Part shown: one piece after another, positions 1,003-18,164 of the stretch
Layout: every line of letters begins with the position of its first letter
Numbering within the stretch: position 1 is the stretch's first letter
Origin: Treponema sp.
Lineage (GTDB): Bacteria > Spirochaetota > Spirochaetia > Treponematales > Breznakiellaceae
Assembly (NCBI GenBank): GCA_009781475.1
Contig: WQYB01000018.1
Coordinates: 1-39,100, forward strand
DNA: 39,100 nt
Reading direction: 5' to 3'
Program-made: the position numbers and the translations under genes
Notes under the pieces: generated by a model
Told to the model about the DNA's origin: nothing
The model's database searches: none
The model's input: only the letters and a program-made list of their open reading frames with translations

Positions 1003-2751
1003 ATGTTAAAATTTGAAGACTATGTTTCTAATCTGCCTGATATTCCTCAAGCGAACTTCGCCCAATTACTCGAACACTTGGCTGTAAAACACGCTAACAA
1101 GGATTTTATTCTTTACCGAACAAGCAAACAAAAAGATTTTACCCGCTGGACTTTTTCAAGATTTAACGAAGAGTGCCGCAGAGTCGCACGCGGACTTTTA
1201 GCCGCAGGATTGGTTAAAGGCGACCGGGTTGTAATTTGGTCGGAAAACAGACCCGGCTGGATGTCAATCTGGATGGGAGCTGTTATTGCCGGTCTTTCAA
1301 TAGTACCTGTCGATTTCCTTGTTACAGAACAGGAATGTTTAAATATCATAAAAATTACTAGAGCAAAAGCGTTTTTTTATTCGGGAAGAAAAAAAGAATT
1401 TGCAGCCTCACTTCCCTCTAACGGAATTTCGATGGCAGCTACAGTGTGTATCAGCCCTGAAAGCGATGATGCGCCTGAAGGTATAGAAACAGAATATGAA
1501 TCTTTCGGCAAAGACGCGGATAATCAAGTTTTACCTAATCCAGACAGTATCGCTTATAATCATCCTGCTTCGATTGTATTTACATCGGGAACCACAGGTT
1601 TTGCAAAAGGCGTAACTCTTTCGCATAAAAATATAATCGCCAATGCAAGCGCCGCAATACGTATTTTGCAGCCGAATGATAAAGATGTTTTTATCGATGT
1701 TCTGCCTTTACATCACACATATCCTACAACCTGTTCTTTTATAGCTCCGTTTGCCAGCGGAGTCCCTGTTGTAATCGTAGAAAAAATTGTCGGTAAAGTT
1801 GTAATCGACGACATCAGAGATGCGGGAGTTACATTTCTTATTGGTGTTCCATTGCTTTATGACAAAGTGATGACAGCTATAAATACAGGTTATCAAAAAC
1901 TTTCTCCGGTTCTAAGAGTTCCGTTAAATATGCTGCGTAAAAAAGCTCTTGCCGAAGCCAACAAAGGAAACCCTGATTTTGGCAGAAAAGCATTACGTTT
2001 AATACGCAAAAAAGCCGGGCTTTTATCAATAAAGATAATGGTTGCAGGCGGCGGACCTTTAAGTATTAAAACAGCCGATTTTTTTGATTCATTTGGTTTT
2101 AATATAGTGCAAGGTTACGGCATGAGCGAAAACTCTCCGTTAATAACTGTAAATACTCCGCGTCATAAAAACAATGAATCGGTCGGGCTTCCTGTAAGTT
2201 ATACTGATGTTCAAATACTAGACCCCACCCCCGAAGGCATCGGAGAGATCGCCTGTAAGTCGCCTTCTGTAATGCTCGGTTATTTTGAAAATGACGAAGC
2301 TACAAAAGAAGTTATAAACGAAGACGGTTATCTTTTAACAGGCGACCTCGGTTACCGCGATGAAAAAGGTTTTATTTTTATCAAAGGCCGCAAGAAAAAT
2401 CTTATAGTCGGCTCCGGCGGAAAAAACGTATACCCCGAAGAAGTCGAAGCGCATTTTGCAGGTTCTCGAATTATCGCAGAAGTACTTGTTGTCGGCAGAA
2501 AAACACCAAGCGGCGAAATTATTTATACAGTAGCGGTTCCCAACTTTGAAAATATCAAAGTTGATTTCCCCGGCAAAGAAAATGATGATTCTTTTATAAA
2601 AGATTTAATTAAAAAGGAAGTTGAAGAAGCCAATCGCTCGCTTCCTGTATACAAAAAGATCGGAGATTTCTGTGTGCGCAACGAACAGTTTGAAAAGAAC
2701 GCGCAGCAGAAGATCCGCCGCTTCATGTACGCAAGCTACGAAAATCCTTAA
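1003..2751 (+). CDS. AMP-binding long-chain acyl-CoA synthetase family protein
   Basis: An ATP-dependent adenylate-forming enzyme that activates a fatty acid as acyl-AMP and transfers it to CoA (or possibly ACP), 582 residues, the usual size for long-chain acyl-CoA ligases. The P-loop-like motif FTSGTTGFAKGVTLSH lies near residues 195-210. The later motifs YGMSENSP, LLTGDLGY and KGRKKNLIVGSGGKNVYPEE follow in the correct order. There is no signal peptide; the enzyme is cytoplasmic or membrane-associated. The start is supported by AGAGGT five bases before the ATG and by the consensus promoter. The gene is monocistronic: tyrS is separated by a hairpin and the next gene converges. In host-associated spirochaetes such enzymes activate scavenged fatty acids for phospholipid synthesis; that role here is inference. 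Substrate chain length cannot be read from the sequence. Confidence 0.92.
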   Translation: MLKFEDYVSNLPDIPQANFAQLLEHLAVKHANKDFILYRTSKQKDFTRWTFSRFNEECRRVARGLLAAGLVKGDRVVIWSENRPGWMSIWMGAVIAGLSIVPVDFLVTEQECLNIIKITRAKAFFYSGRKKEFAASLPSNGISMAATVCISPESDDAPEGIETEYESFGKDADNQVLPNPDSIAYNHPASIVFTSGTTGFAKGVTLSHKNIIANASAAIRILQPNDKDVFIDVLPLHHTYPTTCSFIAPFASGVPVVIVEKIVGKVVIDDIRDAGVTFLIGVPLLYDKVMTAINTGYQKLSPVLRVPLNMLRKKALAEANKGNPDFGRKALRLIRKKAGLLSIKIMVAGGGPLSIKTADFFDSFGFNIVQGYGMSENSPLITVNTPRHKNNESVGLPVSYTDVQILDPTPEGIGEIACKSPSVMLGYFENDEATKEVINEDGYLLTGDLGYRDEKGFIFIKGRKKNLIVGSGGKNVYPEEVEAHFAGSRIIAEVLVVGRKTPSGEIIYTVAVPNFENIKVDFPGKENDDSFIKDLIKKEVEEANRSLPVYKKIGDFCVRNEQFEKNAQQKIRRFMYASYENP

Positions 2752-13041: not shown

Positions 13042-13755
13042 TTAATATAACCCGCTATTTACCAAATTTATTACTTCTGTTTTTAGTTCGTTGTTTTCAT
13101 CATAGTATTCTAAAAATATAGCTTTATTTTCAAAATATGAATTATTCCCAATAATAAACCAGAAAATATCGTCGTTATTATCAGATTGAATATCTAATTT
13201 TTTATATATTTCTGGTTCAAATATTTTATATATTGTAAAATCAAAAACAGCACATAAAATCAAACTATTATTAACATCAATTATTCCTGTAGCAAGATCA
13301 AACCTATCTGATAGTATATGCCGATCTCTTGAATAAAAATATGAATAAACGCTTGGAGCTAATGAACTGCCGCAATCTATCCTTAATAATTTGTCATTTA
13401 TCCAATATATTCTTGGTTCAGGTCTGGTAAAAAAATTTTCTATTTCTATAATTGTATCATGTAAATTATTTTTTATTTCTATTCTATATCTTTCATTCCT
13501 TATATTTTCTTCATATTCAGGTCTAGCTTCAGCAAATATTGTTATTGTACAATTATTTTCTGTTAATTTTTCAAAGACAAACTCTCTGTACTGATCCTGT
13601 ATTTCAAAAATTATTGATTCATTTTCGTTTATTTCTATATCAAATTCTAAAATCGCTTCATTTCCATTTTTTCTGCTACCATCGCAGGCAGTAAAAAATA
13701 TACCGATTATTGCTATAAAAATAAAAAACATGAATGGTTTTGTTTTATCTTTCAA
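13042..13755 (-). CDS. AT-rich predicted lipoprotein, unknown function
   Basis: Unknown family, 237 residues. The N-terminus KPFMFFIFIAIIGIFFTAC is a lipoprotein signal (lipobox FTAC), so the mature protein begins CDGSRKN and is exported. The rest is rich in Asn, Asp, Glu and Ile, with many short beta-strand patterns. The start is TTG at 13755, supported by AAGAAGG about six bases upstream. Base composition is clearly more AT-rich than rlmE or glyA, and the gene faces away from both, so it may be an acquired or fast-evolving orphan. No partner gene is suggested by context. Confidence 0.7.
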   Translation of the reverse strand: MKDKTKPFMFFIFIAIIGIFFTACDGSRKNGNEAILEFDIEINENESIIFEIQDQYREFVFEKLTENNCTITIFAEARPEYEENIRNERYRIEIKNNLHDTIIEIENFFTRPEPRIYWINDKLLRIDCGSSLAPSVYSYFYSRDRHILSDRFDLATGIIDVNNSLILCAVFDFTIYKIFEPEIYKKLDIQSDNNDDIFWFIIGNNSYFENKAIFLEYYDENNELKTEVINLVNSGLY

Positions 13756-13852: not shown

Positions 13853-15370
13853 ATGAATAATAACCCTGTTGCGGATTATATTGCCGCTGTTTCGCGTGAT
13901 AAAATAGACACAAATCTTCTGGCTTACCTTTGCAGTTTAATGGAAATTTCAAAGGTTACTCCTCAAATTGCCTGCTCTATTGTTAAAGAGCTGGAAAATC
14001 AGCGCAAAAGGGTAAAGCTAATTGCCAGCGAAAACTACTGTTCTATGGCAGTGCAGCTTGCGATGGGGAACCTTTTAACAGACAAATATGCCGAAGGTGT
14101 TCCTAACCACCGTTTTTACGCCGGAAATGAAAATGTGGATGATATTGAAATGCTTGCTTCAAAGGAAGCCTGCGGACTTTTTGGCGCTGAATACGCAAAT
14201 GTACAGGCGCATTGCGGAGCGGATGCCAATGTTCTGGCTTATTGGGCTATTCTTAGCACAAGAGTCGAATATCCCTTGATGGAAAAATTCGGCGAAACAA
14301 ATCTTTATAAACTTGATGATGATAAATGGAAAGAACTTAAAAACAGTCTTGGAAACCAGCGTCTTTTGGGATTGGATTATTATTCCGGCGGACATCTTAC
14401 ACATGGCTACCGTTACAATATGACAAGCCGGATGTTCGATGTATACAGCTATTCGGTTTCTGATAAAGACGGTCTTATGGATTACGATGAAATTGAAAAA
14501 CAAGCGGTAAAAGTAAAACCTCTTATCCTATTGGCAGGTTATTCGGCGTATCCGCGAAAGATCAACTTTAAACGAATGAGAGAAATCGCCGACAAGGTTA
14601 ATGCTGTTTTTATGGTAGATATGGCTCATTTTGCCGGTCTTGTTGCGGGTAAGATTTTTACAGGCGAATATGATCCTGTTCCCTGGGCGCATGTTGTTAC
14701 AAGCACAACTCATAAAACGCTAAGAGGTCCCAGAGCGGGACTTGTGCTTTCTACAAAAGAATTTGCCGATGCGCTGGATAAAGGATGTCCGCTTACAATG
14801 GGAGGTCCGTTGCCGCATGTGATAGCGGCAAAAGCAATCGCTTTCCGTGAAGCTGCCTCCGCCGATTTTAAACAATACGCAAAAAAAGTTGTAGATAACT
14901 GCAAGGCTTTGGCAGCTTCCTGCATAAAAAACGGTCTTGATGTGCTTACAGGCGGAACCGATAATCATCTTATTTTAATTAATGTTGATAAAGCCGGCAT
15001 TACAGGCAGGCAGGCGGAAAGCGCTTTACACGAATGTCACATAACGCTTAACCGAAACAGCCTTCCCCGTGATCCAAACGGTCCCTGGTATACATCCGGG
15101 ATTAGAGTCGGAACTGCAGCTGTTACAACTCTTGGCATGGAAGAAATACAGATGGCAGAGCTTGGTGAGCTTATGGCAAAAGTTATTAAAAACACAACCC
15201 AGGCAAAAGATAAAAAAGACCCATCCAAAAACAGCAAGGCAAAATACAATATCGATGCTGCTGTAAAAGAAGAAGTTCATATTCGTGTCAAAACTTTAAT
15301 GGAAAAATTCCCCGTGTATCCCGAGCTGGATTTGGATTTACTAAAAAAATACTTTGTTGTTTCTCAATAA
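13853..15370 (+). CDS. glyA: Serine hydroxymethyltransferase (long form)
   Basis: A PLP enzyme converting serine and tetrahydrofolate to glycine and methylene-THF, in the cytoplasm. 505 residues against about 420 for most bacteria. The extra length lies in an N-terminal extension (about residues 1-40), in inserts around 150-190, and in a Lys-rich segment near 445-460 (QAKDKKDPSKNSKAK). ASENYCS, DKYAEGVPNHRFYAGN and QAHCGADAN identify the family. Lys288 in STTHKTLRGPRAG is the PLP lysine. Extended SHMTs are, to my knowledge, usual in treponemes. It is preceded by a good promoter with no ribosome-binding site (see the promoter entry). Methylene-THF is also the one-carbon source used by MnmE, but no co-regulation is visible. 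Confidence 0.96.
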   Translation: MNNNPVADYIAAVSRDKIDTNLLAYLCSLMEISKVTPQIACSIVKELENQRKRVKLIASENYCSMAVQLAMGNLLTDKYAEGVPNHRFYAGNENVDDIEMLASKEACGLFGAEYANVQAHCGADANVLAYWAILSTRVEYPLMEKFGETNLYKLDDDKWKELKNSLGNQRLLGLDYYSGGHLTHGYRYNMTSRMFDVYSYSVSDKDGLMDYDEIEKQAVKVKPLILLAGYSAYPRKINFKRMREIADKVNAVFMVDMAHFAGLVAGKIFTGEYDPVPWAHVVTSTTHKTLRGPRAGLVLSTKEFADALDKGCPLTMGGPLPHVIAAKAIAFREAASADFKQYAKKVVDNCKALAASCIKNGLDVLTGGTDNHLILINVDKAGITGRQAESALHECHITLNRNSLPRDPNGPWYTSGIRVGTAAVTTLGMEEIQMAELGELMAKVIKNTTQAKDKKDPSKNSKAKYNIDAAVKEEVHIRVKTLMEKFPVYPELDLDLLKKYFVVSQ

Positions 15371-15440
15371 ATATTCAGAAAAGTTAAATACAGTTTTATT
15401 ATTTAATAAATGGATTTTATAAATAATAAGGAGACATTTT

Positions 15441-16043
15441 TTGACACAGAATACAGCCAAATGTTTAACAATCCTTATCATAATTAGTATAACTTTTTCA
15501 ATGAATTCCTGTAATGTTTATGAAATTTCTTGGAGGAATTACAGTACATATTCTGATGAAAATATTAAATTGAAATTCCAAAACAACGAAAAAGTTAATT
15601 TAAAGTTAAACAAAACAAAAAGGTTTAGATTATTTACACAAATAGATTATATAATAGAGTTTGAAAGACAATATGGATGTTACATATATGTGTATCCTTT
15701 TTTTAATATAAATACTGAATCTGAAATATTTTTTTATAACATAAATATTATAAATCAAAATGAAAAAAGTATCATTATAGAAGAAAGAAAAGATGTAGAG
15801 GCATACTTTGCAGAGTTTTATATAGATAATTTACGTTATAATGTAATATCAAAAGATAATATATTAGCAATAACAGAACCTAAAGAATTTACAAATATTA
15901 ATGATATATTATCTTATATTGAAACTTCTGATTTTACTTTTATAACTGCCGGAAGAACTGATTATGATGGGGTTGTTAAAGGCGGATATATCGTAAGAAG
16001 TAAAATAGATAGTACTATTCTTTGGCTGGAAGGCGGTTTATAA
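15441..16043 (+). CDS. AT-rich predicted lipoprotein, unknown function
   Basis: Unknown family, 200 residues. The N-terminus CLTILIIISITFSMNSC is a lipoprotein signal with lipobox MNSC. The mature part is very rich in Ile, Asn, Tyr and Lys, with short strands such as YIIEFERQYGCYIYVY; no domain is recognised. The start is TTG at 15441, with AAGGAG seven bases upstream (15428-15433), a strong site that decides the start. It shares the very low GC and TTG start of the lipoprotein on the other side of glyA, which suggests similar origin or evolution, although the sequences are not evidently homologous. It is followed by the 650-base gene-free region. Confidence 0.7.
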   Translation: MTQNTAKCLTILIIISITFSMNSCNVYEISWRNYSTYSDENIKLKFQNNEKVNLKLNKTKRFRLFTQIDYIIEFERQYGCYIYVYPFFNINTESEIFFYNINIINQNEKSIIIEERKDVEAYFAEFYIDNLRYNVISKDNILAITEPKEFTNINDILSYIETSDFTFITAGRTDYDGVVKGGYIVRSKIDSTILWLEGGL

Positions 16044-16079
16044 TAATTAAAATATATGAGATAATCTATTAGATGCTTG

Positions 16080-16615
16080 GAGGTAGACAGTATGAAATAT
16101 AGATGTTGTTAGCTGTCATAGAACACAATGATTAGTTTAGTTCGTTAGAAAAACCTTCATAAGGTGAACAGCGAAAAGACTAAACAGCGATATATGACTG
16201 CTTTTCACAATAGATATGTTTGTGTATCCTTTTAATCCTTGATTAATAAGGTAAATAACTAATAGCTAGCAGATAAAAGCTAAGTAACATTATTAATTAA
16301 AGCCAGGTACAAAAGTGGGAGTGCTGGATGTAAGCAGGGGTAGCAGCGAAAAAAGAAGTAACAAAACTGTCACAGATGCAAAACTCTTGTTTTAAGGTGA
16401 TGCATAAAAAAACTTTTAATTAATTAGAAATGTATGCTCTAATATAACTTATAGGCAGGGAGACTGCGAGACGACAAAACTATCTTTGGAATTCTCTGCG
16501 GAAGAGATAAAGGGCTTTACGAAGTAAAGACCAGCTCTGTAGCAGGTTCCTCCAAAAGTTTTGCTCGGCACGCAGGCTGCGCTGCCTATTTAGATAGTTT
16601 AATAGGCATACATTT
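16080..16615 (+). ncRNA. Candidate structured non-coding RNA, unknown family
   Basis: This lies in the 650-base gap 16044-16694, which contains no credible protein gene. Complementary segments nest consistently.
5' part: GACAG 16086-16090 with CTGTC 16113-16117; GTTTAGT 16135-16141 with ACTAAAC 16179-16185, enclosing ACCTT-cat-AAGGT (16153-16165); CACAA with TTGTG (16206-16224); ATGCAAAAC with GTTTT and GCAT (16376-16405).
3' part: AAATGTATGC 16428-16437 with GCATACATTT 16606-16615; ATAGGCAG 16451-16458 with CTGCCTAT 16582-16589; CAAAAC with GTTTTG; TTTGGA with TCCAAA; then two hairpins, TCTCT-gcgga-AGAGA and CTTTAC-gaa-GTAAAG.
The plus strand is favoured by the C-GAA-G triloop and a G-A mismatch. 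I find no tmRNA tag or tRNA-like end, no RNase P or SRP signatures, and no clear terminator. Boundaries are approximate. Confidence 0.5.
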
Positions 16616-16681
16616 CAATTGTTACCTGCGGGGGTTTTCGCGCAAGCCTGTGAAAAAAGTAATAAGCATACATTTTGCAAT
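16601..16681 (+). repeat. Direct repeat AATARGCATACATTT, 60 bases apart
   Basis: AATAGGCATACATTT (16601-16615) recurs as AATAAGCATACATTT (16661-16675), each followed by a CAATT motif. A single inverted counterpart, AAATGTATGC, lies at 16428-16437. Either copy could pair with that arm, which would make two alternative closing stems. The repeats could also be terminal repeats of a small decayed element. Confidence 0.5.
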
Positions 16682-16694
16682 TAATTGCTTTAAA

Positions 16695-18164
16695 TCAAGC
16701 GGCTTTTTGTTTTTCTTTATCGTTAATATACATTGTAAAAATGTCAAAAAGTATAACGTCTATTTTTTGATTTCTTTCTACAAATTCTTCACGCATCATA
16801 ACAAGAGCTTCTTCCGGTGTCATTGATTTGCGGTAGACTCGGTGGGGGTCTGTAACACTATCATAAACATCAATTATTTCCAGGACTTTTGCGGGAAAAT
16901 AGGCAAGCGCACGGTAATCCAAAATGGGTTCCAAATCATAAGTGATGCAGTAATCTTGTTTTGCGCTTGGATTGGCTTTTTTATACTGTTCAAGGTACGC
17001 CCTAAAATAACCGTAACCTGTCGGATCACCGTAGTATTCGTGATGATAACCTGTAATAAGACTTGCTTCCATCGGATAATTGGTTTTATTCATAATGGAT
17101 TTATAACCCTGTTTTACATGGTCAATAACGATATTGCGGTTATATTTTTCTTCACCTTCGTGGTACTCAACAGCGTTCGCTTTGCCGATATCGTGAATTA
17201 AAAAACCGACAGCCCATTTAAAATATAAATCAGGAGGAATTGCCCTCATACCTCCGTAAAATATACGCTCAAGGATTATATCATCAATATTCATATGCGG
17301 AAGCAGTTTATGATAAAAATTGCGATACTTGGAAGCAAACGATATTCGCATTTTTTGTATTGCGCTTGATGTAGAAACAAGATTGTTATAATAAGATAAA
17401 AACGATAATCCGTTAAGATACACCCTGGTCATGTGCTGTACAATAGTGCCGTTGGATTTTTCTACAAGGATGTTCATTAATTCATTACTGAAAATATTTT
17501 CTGATATTAACTGAGCTGATGACTTTACCATATCATGTGTAGAATTTACAAGTTCCTGAGTGAGTTTTTTGGCTTCATCATCGGCAAGACGCAAGGCATC
17601 TTCCAAAGCAGCGTGGTTTATTAAAGCGGCGTCTTTGGCTGTATCTACAAGAGCTTCTGTAACTTCAGCTTCGTTTTTATATTTTTGCGCAAGGATTTCG
17701 CTTAATCGTTTTTTATCGTGTTTTAAATAATCAACTTTTTCTTTAAGAGGCATATTGGCAAAATATGTATATTCGTTTCCATATCCTACTTCAACTTCAA
17801 GCTCTTCGATATCATCATCTATTTTGTCATCTTTTTTATTATCAACTGCTGTTTCGGGAGCTTTTATGGTTTTTGACATATCCGCTTCCCAAACATCCGG
17901 TTTTTCATTAAATTTTTCTTTTAATTTATTAAAACCTTCTTCTGTAAGATAGTAATCCCAGTTTCCGCTTTGCAGCCAAAAACTTTCATGATTATCATAA
18001 AGGACTTTAAACGGCATAAGGCGTTTTTTTTGTGTTTCATTGTTTAAACAGAAAATGTGGATTTCTTCGTTTATAATAATGTCTATATAGAGTTTATTCA
18101 CACTCTTTTCGTTCTGCGATGATAATACTTTTGATAGCGGTATAATAGACTTTTTTACTGACAT
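16695..18164 (-). CDS. HD-domain (HD-GYP-like) protein
   Basis: 489 residues. The C-terminal half is an HD phosphohydrolase domain: HDIGKAN with His324-Asp325, then HVKQGYKSI, then HHEYYGDPTGYG, which resembles the HD-GYP signature HHE..DGxGYP but with PTGYG in place of GYP. Such domains often hydrolyse cyclic di-GMP; the altered motif makes this only probable. The N-terminal 120 residues may form a small beta domain that could sense a ligand, followed by an acidic linker (KKDDKIDDDIEELEVEVG) and a long helical region (about 150-240). There are no membrane segments. The conserved metal-binding histidines appear intact. Downstream of it is the candidate RNA region; upstream is the DHH gene in the same orientation, separated by a promoter region of 138 bases. 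Confidence 0.85.
   Translation of the reverse strand: MSVKKSIIPLSKVLSSQNEKSVNKLYIDIIINEEIHIFCLNNETQKKRLMPFKVLYDNHESFWLQSGNWDYYLTEEGFNKLKEKFNEKPDVWEADMSKTIKAPETAVDNKKDDKIDDDIEELEVEVGYGNEYTYFANMPLKEKVDYLKHDKKRLSEILAQKYKNEAEVTEALVDTAKDAALINHAALEDALRLADDEAKKLTQELVNSTHDMVKSSAQLISENIFSNELMNILVEKSNGTIVQHMTRVYLNGLSFLSYYNNLVSTSSAIQKMRISFASKYRNFYHKLLPHMNIDDIILERIFYGGMRAIPPDLYFKWAVGFLIHDIGKANAVEYHEGEEKYNRNIVIDHVKQGYKSIMNKTNYPMEASLITGYHHEYYGDPTGYGYFRAYLEQYKKANPSAKQDYCITYDLEPILDYRALAYFPAKVLEIIDVYDSVTDPHRVYRKSMTPEEALVMMREEFVERNQKIDVILFDIFTMYINDKEKQKAA

Follow-up and report, generated by a model that had tools for sequence, protein, structure and literature searches.

The enterobacterial repeat ERIC, also named IRU, is described as a small intergenic palindrome of 127 bp which occurs in high copy number and forms one long hairpin, and its copies in Yersinia are reported to have an orientation-dependent effect on mRNA stability (PMC2229807, PMC2267715). 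For the Bacillus cereus group, the dispersed repeat bcr1 is described with a length of about 150-170 bp and a common hairpin fold (PMC2267715), while the described REPs measure 20-40 bp (PMC3733652). Repeats of this structured intergenic kind, exemplified by ERIC and bcr1, come closest among the known kinds to a long hairpin encountered in a stretch of 39,100 nucleotides from a Treponema sp., here called the window. Like ERIC, the treponeme element is small, intergenic, palindromic and of high copy number with a long hairpin, a likeness drawn from the description of ERIC and not from aligned sequences. Unlike in ERIC, the stems vary freely with compensation while the internal loops are fixed, the outer arms are copy-specific, the tip varies from copy to copy, and accessory genes are in some cases enclosed by copies. 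With bcr1, likewise compared by description only, it shares the dispersed repetition of a hairpin fold, in another lineage. In the manner of MITE-like elements, it is non-coding and bears terminal inverted repeats around the common hairpin fold, some copies having short or truncated arms. Nevertheless, its strict loops beside freely compensating stems, as well as its ties to accessory genes, set the hairpin apart from the structured intergenic repeats. The attC sites of integrons also form long imperfect hairpins, with extrahelical bases, a central unpaired spacer and a variable tip; they lie beside cassette genes and carry the boxes RYYYAAC and GTTRRRY. The long imperfect hairpin, the extrahelical bases, the central unpaired spacer, the variable tip and the position of copies beside accessory genes recur in the treponeme element.

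The hairpin lies in the gap 16044-16694, which, as the original prediction had claimed, holds no protein gene: there is no noteworthy ORF, and the only one of at least 40 aa wholly inside is a minus-strand ORF of 40 aa. No tRNA or tmRNA was found in the whole window, the search of the whole window against the Rfam covariance models gave no match at gathering level, and 15900-16800 yielded only three matches at E<=10, all far below their gathering scores. The gap belongs to a larger insertion with the following features:

13853-15370, gene convergent with the HD-domain gene, which we take to be glyA, a name given from the sequence and not from a family search
15371-16694, no strand, insertion of 1,324 bp comprising a lipoprotein-like gene and a repeat mosaic, flanked by the convergent glyA and HD-domain gene
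15441-16043, plus strand, accessory gene of 200 aa with the lipoprotein-like signal ISITFSMNSC, read by eye
16097-16229, plus strand, repeat block A, pieces of which recur with 80-92% identity in the same genome (L022, L023, L031)
16193-16229, plus strand, short piece of block A (L024-L027)
16301-16446, plus strand, repeat block B, with pieces 73-81% identical in L024-L026
16427-16437, plus strand, left arm GAAATGTATGC of the outer 11-bp closing stem
16452-16588, plus strand, this copy of the dispersed long hairpin, matched by the covariance model R1 at 16472-16567 with 89.9 bits
16606-16616, plus strand, right arm GCATACATTTC of the outer closing stem
16625-16685, plus strand, repeat block C, ending around AAGCATACATTTT and having the most own-genome matches of any block among the matches listed
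16695-18164, HD-domain gene, convergent with glyA

Between match ends, the spacing of glyA and the HD-domain gene amounts to 25-176 bp in 18 of 19 relatives and to 647 bp in the remaining one, compared with 1,324 bp here; the 19 are those relatives with both genes matched in the fetched locus, beside 10 other fetched loci without both and six matching relatives outside the set. No hairpin match occurred at this site in any of 29 fetched relative loci. The accessory gene gave no Pfam family at E<=0.01. The 3' module of the gap is one copy of a dispersed element which is lineage-specific and present in many copies. Probably, the lipoprotein-like gene and this hairpin copy entered together as one cassette-like insertion. 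On the other side of glyA (13042-13755, minus strand), a second orphan gene, lipoprotein-like by eye, likewise lacks a Pfam family at E<=0.01. The closest relative, G016, features a different insert at the glyA/HD site (L268, contig C7), with an HTH-like and a lipoprotein-like gene (by eye), which is bounded by the inverted sequence TAATCGTGTGTTA / TAACACACGATTA.

Comparison of the gap with its own genome by DNA search (E<=0.001) gave 23 matches, including the gap itself and its own inverted self-match. Most of the gap is a mosaic of block A, block B, the hairpin module and block C, which are found elsewhere in other orders and combinations, with L021 matching 16301-16675 as a single piece of 75% identity. 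At L024 (C126) and L025 (C148), the blocks adjoin Rhs/YD-repeat-like genes, a label assigned by eye, as the Pfam RHS match reaches 18.5 bits and lies below its cut-off of 27.9. The repeat blocks are also contained in contigs C172 and C177. Since the hairpin model matches at only two of the 11 other own-genome block loci (L021, L030) and is missing from nine, hairpin and blocks are separable.

An excess of fold energy over shuffled sequence on both strands, as anticipated by the original prediction, held for the whole gap (z -5.2 and -5.0 on the two strands, equalled by none of 20 shuffles) and for the 3' module 16428-16616 alone (z -6.3 on the plus and -7.0 on the minus strand, equalled by none of 200 shuffles on either), but not for the 5' part 16044-16427, which alone gave z -1.0, with 16 of 100 shuffles folding equally well. 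The inner stretch 16440-16580 reached z -2.7, equalled by two of 200 shuffles, and six other hairpin copies, folded likewise, ranged from -2.7 to -13.8; the outer arms supply part of the energy excess of the 3' module. As the 5' part features no energy excess and holds blocks that are dispersed elsewhere, mostly apart from the hairpin, one large RNA over the whole gap, which had been considered as well, is unsupported. Moreover, the module is one long imperfect palindrome with an equal excess on both strands, so that energy alone cannot choose between RNA and DNA or between the strands. The case is also a warning that a gap may reach a strong fold z-score without containing an RNA gene.

Two of the predicted structural details are present in the 3' module: the closing stem 16427-16437 / 16606-16616, all 11 bp of which are matched, and the hairpin TTTACGAAGTAAAG with its C-GAA-G triloop, which begins at 16516. 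From the outside towards the tip and back, this copy is composed as follows:

16475-16489, plus strand, helices 1-2 on their 5' side, CAAAACT-ATC-TTTGG, including the conserved bulge of 3 nt, here AUC; pairs with 16552-16563
16490-16508, plus strand, 5' side of loop 2 (AATTCT), helix 3 (CTGC), GGA of the 3x3 loop and helix 4 (AGAG)
16512-16532, plus strand, variable tip, the hairpin GGGCTTTACGAAGTAAAGACC with the C-GAA-G triloop
16534-16551, plus strand, 3' counterpart GCTCT-GTA-GCAG-GTTCCT, made up of helix 4, the 3x3 loop (GTA), helix 3 and loop 2

The score of 89.9 bits is the highest among the matches listed, this copy being also one of the 23 sequences from which R1 was built. Around the hairpin of L044, a G005 copy, identical outer ends recur; those of another copy, L049, agree less exactly. 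The tip recurs in two copies of G008 and, with one change, in a copy of G042, other tips being found elsewhere. The aligned outer arms are copy-specific with a median length of 38.5 in 108 copies; they are perfectly complementary over 34-38 bp in three printed copies and short, broken or truncated in others. Within the tip of some hairpins of G012 and G044, a second palindrome is nested (about CTGACCRCTAAAAC ... GTTTTAGYGGTCAG; L043, L011, L053, L142). Besides, GAGAG follows closely on the 3' side of the stem in 10 of 14 printed G012 copies, in many cases as CGGAGAGS; it is Shine-Dalgarno-like and is sometimes followed by a possible start codon (L039, L118, L147, L148, L153, L155, L158, L159, L161).

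The covariance model R1 comprises 97 positions and 23 pairs and was derived from 23 aligned cores. At E<=0.01 it matched in 26 of 39 genomes of the genus, with at least 10 matches in the genome of the window, at least 54 each in G009 and G012, at least 45 in G044 and at least 44 in G043, counts which are possibly lower bounds as up to 88 candidates were scored per genome; the 13 genomes lacking a match at this threshold include several incomplete MAGs. In a sample of the phylum (E<=0.001, stricter filters), five of 392 genomes were matched, all of them among the 17 listed as the same family and none among the other 375. A degenerate pattern recovered 29 stretches from a named genome collection, which may not include the genome of the window, and all of them stem from MAGs titled Treponema sp., of seven isolates. 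Among the isolate prefixes, Emb289 and Co191 denote termite samples, of Embiratermes neotenicus and Cornitermes sp., respectively, while the main text of the same report does not contain Cx337 (PMC7024585). From these termite-derived relatives, a termite is inferred as host of the organism of the window, too. A viral origin was rejected after the same pattern, which must match exactly and fits only part of the copies, gave no match in viral_contigs. For 79 of 111 copies, the nearest neighbour by core identity was located in the same genome (shuffled mean 10.7, maximum 24); judged by these neighbours, amplification or concerted evolution takes place within lineages. Titles and abstracts on repeats of treponemes, spirochetes and termite treponemes do not describe the element, which does not prove its absence from print. 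The hairpin family fits no family of Rfam; in another locus, L139, positions 1227-1277 (minus strand) match the Rfam 6A RNA (RF02925) with 49.6 bits at a gathering score of 41.2. Of the proposed candidate novel structured RNA, the structure, the conservation and the absence from Rfam were retained, but the kind of object was not, as it is a multi-copy dispersed element.

The predicted covariation in relatives was strongly borne out by pair counts against shuffled and slid controls. In alignment A4 (111 copies, 109 distinct), which was fitted to the model and thus leans towards the modelled structure, 94.7% of cells are paired compared with 79.2% after shuffling, double changes affect 21 of 23 pairs and a total of 381 cells, the slid controls reaching at most 60 cells, and the covariation score amounts to 0.430 versus at most 0.094. 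The analyst drew the structure from folds and from an RNAalifold consensus of 16 sequences in which 19 of the 23 pairs were present, so that the structure used for counting pairs derives from these same sequences. The MAFFT alignment A2 of the first 23 copies gave 93.6% paired cells, changes on both sides in 11 of 23 pairs and a score of 0.318 versus at most 0.084. Relatives keep a continuous hairpin that contains the 3-nt bulge, a loop of roughly 6x6 and another of 3x3, and the invariant positions are unpaired ones. The AUY bulge on the 5' side has A in 99, U in 109 and Y in 103 of 111 copies, UC opposite UC (U25, C26, U222, C223) is fixed in 110-111 of 111, and A42 opposite G206 is found in 109 and 110 of 111, respectively. 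The 3x3 loop reads GNA/GNA in 61 of 76 copies with readable register, 34 copies of other lengths and one unresolved copy being excluded from this count, and GGA and GUA exchange strands between copies. A loop E/sarcin-ricin reading of this loop was dropped because GNA/GNA occurs in either direction.

The balance of wobble pairs gives an indication of the molecule that folds. On the modelled strand, G-U outnumbers A-C by 38:6 in the core without the two loop-flanking pairs and by 70:43 with them, while the outer stem has 135:92 beside 301 other mismatches. After clustering at 95, 90, 85, 80 and 75%, the ratio is 26:5, 22:4, 14:3, 9:3 and 7:2, respectively, and the excess is significant only down to 85% (p=0.013 at 85%, 0.15 at 80%, 0.18 at 75%). 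The G-U excess favours RNA on the plus strand of the window, though not decisively. Since both strands fold equally well and the model weakly matches the opposite strand too at some copies, part of the pairing could stem from selection on DNA or from correction by template switching. The orientation towards neighbouring genes is weakly biased among 65 intergenic copies, with 23 in >>, 17 in ><, 13 in << and 12 in <> arrangement.

At the level of sequence, many copies, compensatory change, fixed motifs, lineage bursts and a gain at a site empty in relatives are demonstrated. The reading that appears most probable, and somewhat likely in itself, is that the 3' module is a copy of a dispersed, non-autonomous palindromic element whose folded form, most likely RNA, would be kept by selection. 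Such an element of about 140-220 bp would multiply within each treponeme lineage and settle mostly between genes, several copies lying at the edge of inserted genes for lipoproteins, toxin-antitoxin systems and Rpn-like nucleases. Selection would act on the folded form, most probably an RNA of the plus strand of the window, because a putative trans-acting protein, either a mobilising enzyme or an RNA-binding or processing protein, may recognize the bulge together with the UC/UC and GNA/GNA loops. By read-through of neighbouring genes, the hairpin would come to lie within mRNA, where it would probably shape processing or stability, as reported for ERIC.

The genomic sites of the copies bear on this reading and on its strongest competitor. 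Among the 77 of 111 copies with an ORF called on both sides by simple ORF calls, 65 are situated outside ORFs. It is doubtful, though to be taken seriously, that the hairpin is instead a folded single-stranded DNA site for recombination or transposition, comparable to attC but without integron integrase, with pairs of copies moving the genes between them. Several single accessory genes do lie between two copies: a Transposase_31/Rpn-like gene in G000 (C23), small genes without Pfam family in G008 (C25), G001 (C186) and G016 (C114; lipoprotein-like by eye), a gene in G001 (C170) which matches the C186 gene at DNA level, a lipoprotein-like gene with RCC1 repeats in G016 (C89), and a gene with a weak, sub-cut-off CdiA_C match in G044 (C58). 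At the two G001 places, hairpin, gene and hairpin make up a homologous block of about 1.7-1.9 kb whose divergence lies within the gene, but segmental duplication could account for it. Moreover, 13 pairs of copies were found within 2 kb among the 150 matches listed versus 2.0 expected at random, or 10 pairs without G047, which shares a homologous region with G044 that was counted in both. In G017 (C231, L325), a weak HTH with a radical-SAM gene and a hairpin, and a PIN/Phd pair with two hairpins, separate ruvC, ruvA and ruvB; the hairpin element adjoins the following ruv gene in each of these two accessory insertions. At one site of the sister genomes G016 and G000, whose two flanking genes are 89-90% identical, G016 has a RelE-like pair, a lipoprotein-like gene and a hairpin, and G000 a MazF-like pair and no hairpin, the RelE-like and MazF-like labels being assigned by the analyst and not by family search. 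Nevertheless, the copies around cargo differ in direction, the G-U excess leans to RNA, and core positions 9 and 10 vary (A/C/T), so that no fixed AAC/GTT box and hence no RYYYAAC/GTTRRRY box exists; unlike attC sites, the copies are scattered over many contigs and do not form one array. The search for mobilising enzymes covered Y1 (PF01797) and the integron integrase (TIGR02249), and no IntI exceeded the curated TIGR02249 cut-off in any of 39 genomes, the sub-cut-off matches in 22 of 39, with a best score of 127.6 bits against 265, being as expected of other tyrosine recombinases. An integron attC/IntI system itself is unsupported, given the variable core positions and the lack of an integrase above the cut-off. 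Inspected by eye, the flanks of 24 printed copies showed no target-site duplication.

For a passive palindrome, an old, functionless remnant of an insertion sequence in which template-switch correction maintains the complementarity of the arms, the odds are poorer, and it must be called improbable. The perfect copy-specific outer arms of some copies speak for it, as do the palindromes nested in the tip and those outside the stem, but such correction would remove the bulge and both internal loops as well, which are fixed at a mean between-genome core identity of 65%. Likewise, at an orthologous site of G009 and G017 the hairpin mostly aligns (72.6% over 157 bp), but the spacer on both sides does not. 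At least one copy is thus common to two sister species at the same site, so that not every copy moves readily. Of 30 fetched loci, that of G009 alone has truA upstream of scpA, so that this site shows only the copy common to the two sisters and no clean empty site.

The outline of 6S RNA consists of a closing stem, a large open central bubble and a terminal stem, and the original prediction had seen this outline in the 3' module. The element resembles 6S RNA in length and in its long rod shape, but RF00013 gave no match in the window and none in this genome at E<=10 (in controls, it matched in eight of 14 genomes and exceeded its cut-off in four), and relatives conserve small loops in a continuous hairpin in place of the large bubble, so that 6S RNA was rejected. 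A separate gene for an RNA acting in trans, be it of the 6S type or of some other regulatory type, would agree with the covariation, the fixed loops and the outline of about 190 nt; against at least 54 matches in some genomes, the lack of any Rfam match and the absence of a copy at this site in the 29 relatives, it is very unlikely. A scan around the hairpin detected no terminator-like site and seven promoter-like sites versus a shuffled mean of 8.6, which also speaks against it. Least probable of all, to the point of being hardly credible, is a REP-like element mobilised by a transposase of the Y1 (HUH) type, as the intergenic palindrome and high copy number would suggest, but the element is far larger than REPs, and Y1_Tnp, matched in 17 of 39 genomes, does not track the repeats and was not found in six copy-rich genomes (G000, G008, G040, G001, G017, G005; 9-34 copies each), where the gene was possibly missed in MAGs 67-94% complete. 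Neither the integron integrase nor the Y1 transposase explains the copies.

For the dispersed palindromic element, the change of most paired bases beside loops that are fixed in more than 100 copies represents unusually clear selection on a folded nucleic acid outside Rfam. That the hairpin is the recognition site of a gene-cassette mobilisation system new to science, operating in gut treponemes without integron integrase, is a tentative and rather unlikely proposal. If it were true, a putative enzyme would read folded RNA or single-stranded DNA by its bulge and its UC/UC and GNA/GNA loops and would insert or exchange accessory genes, i.e., lipoproteins, toxin-antitoxin pairs and nucleases, between core genes. 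The fixed loops lend themselves readily to a search for the protein that recognizes the hairpin, and the hairpin family provides an opening for asking how these treponemes gain accessory genes.
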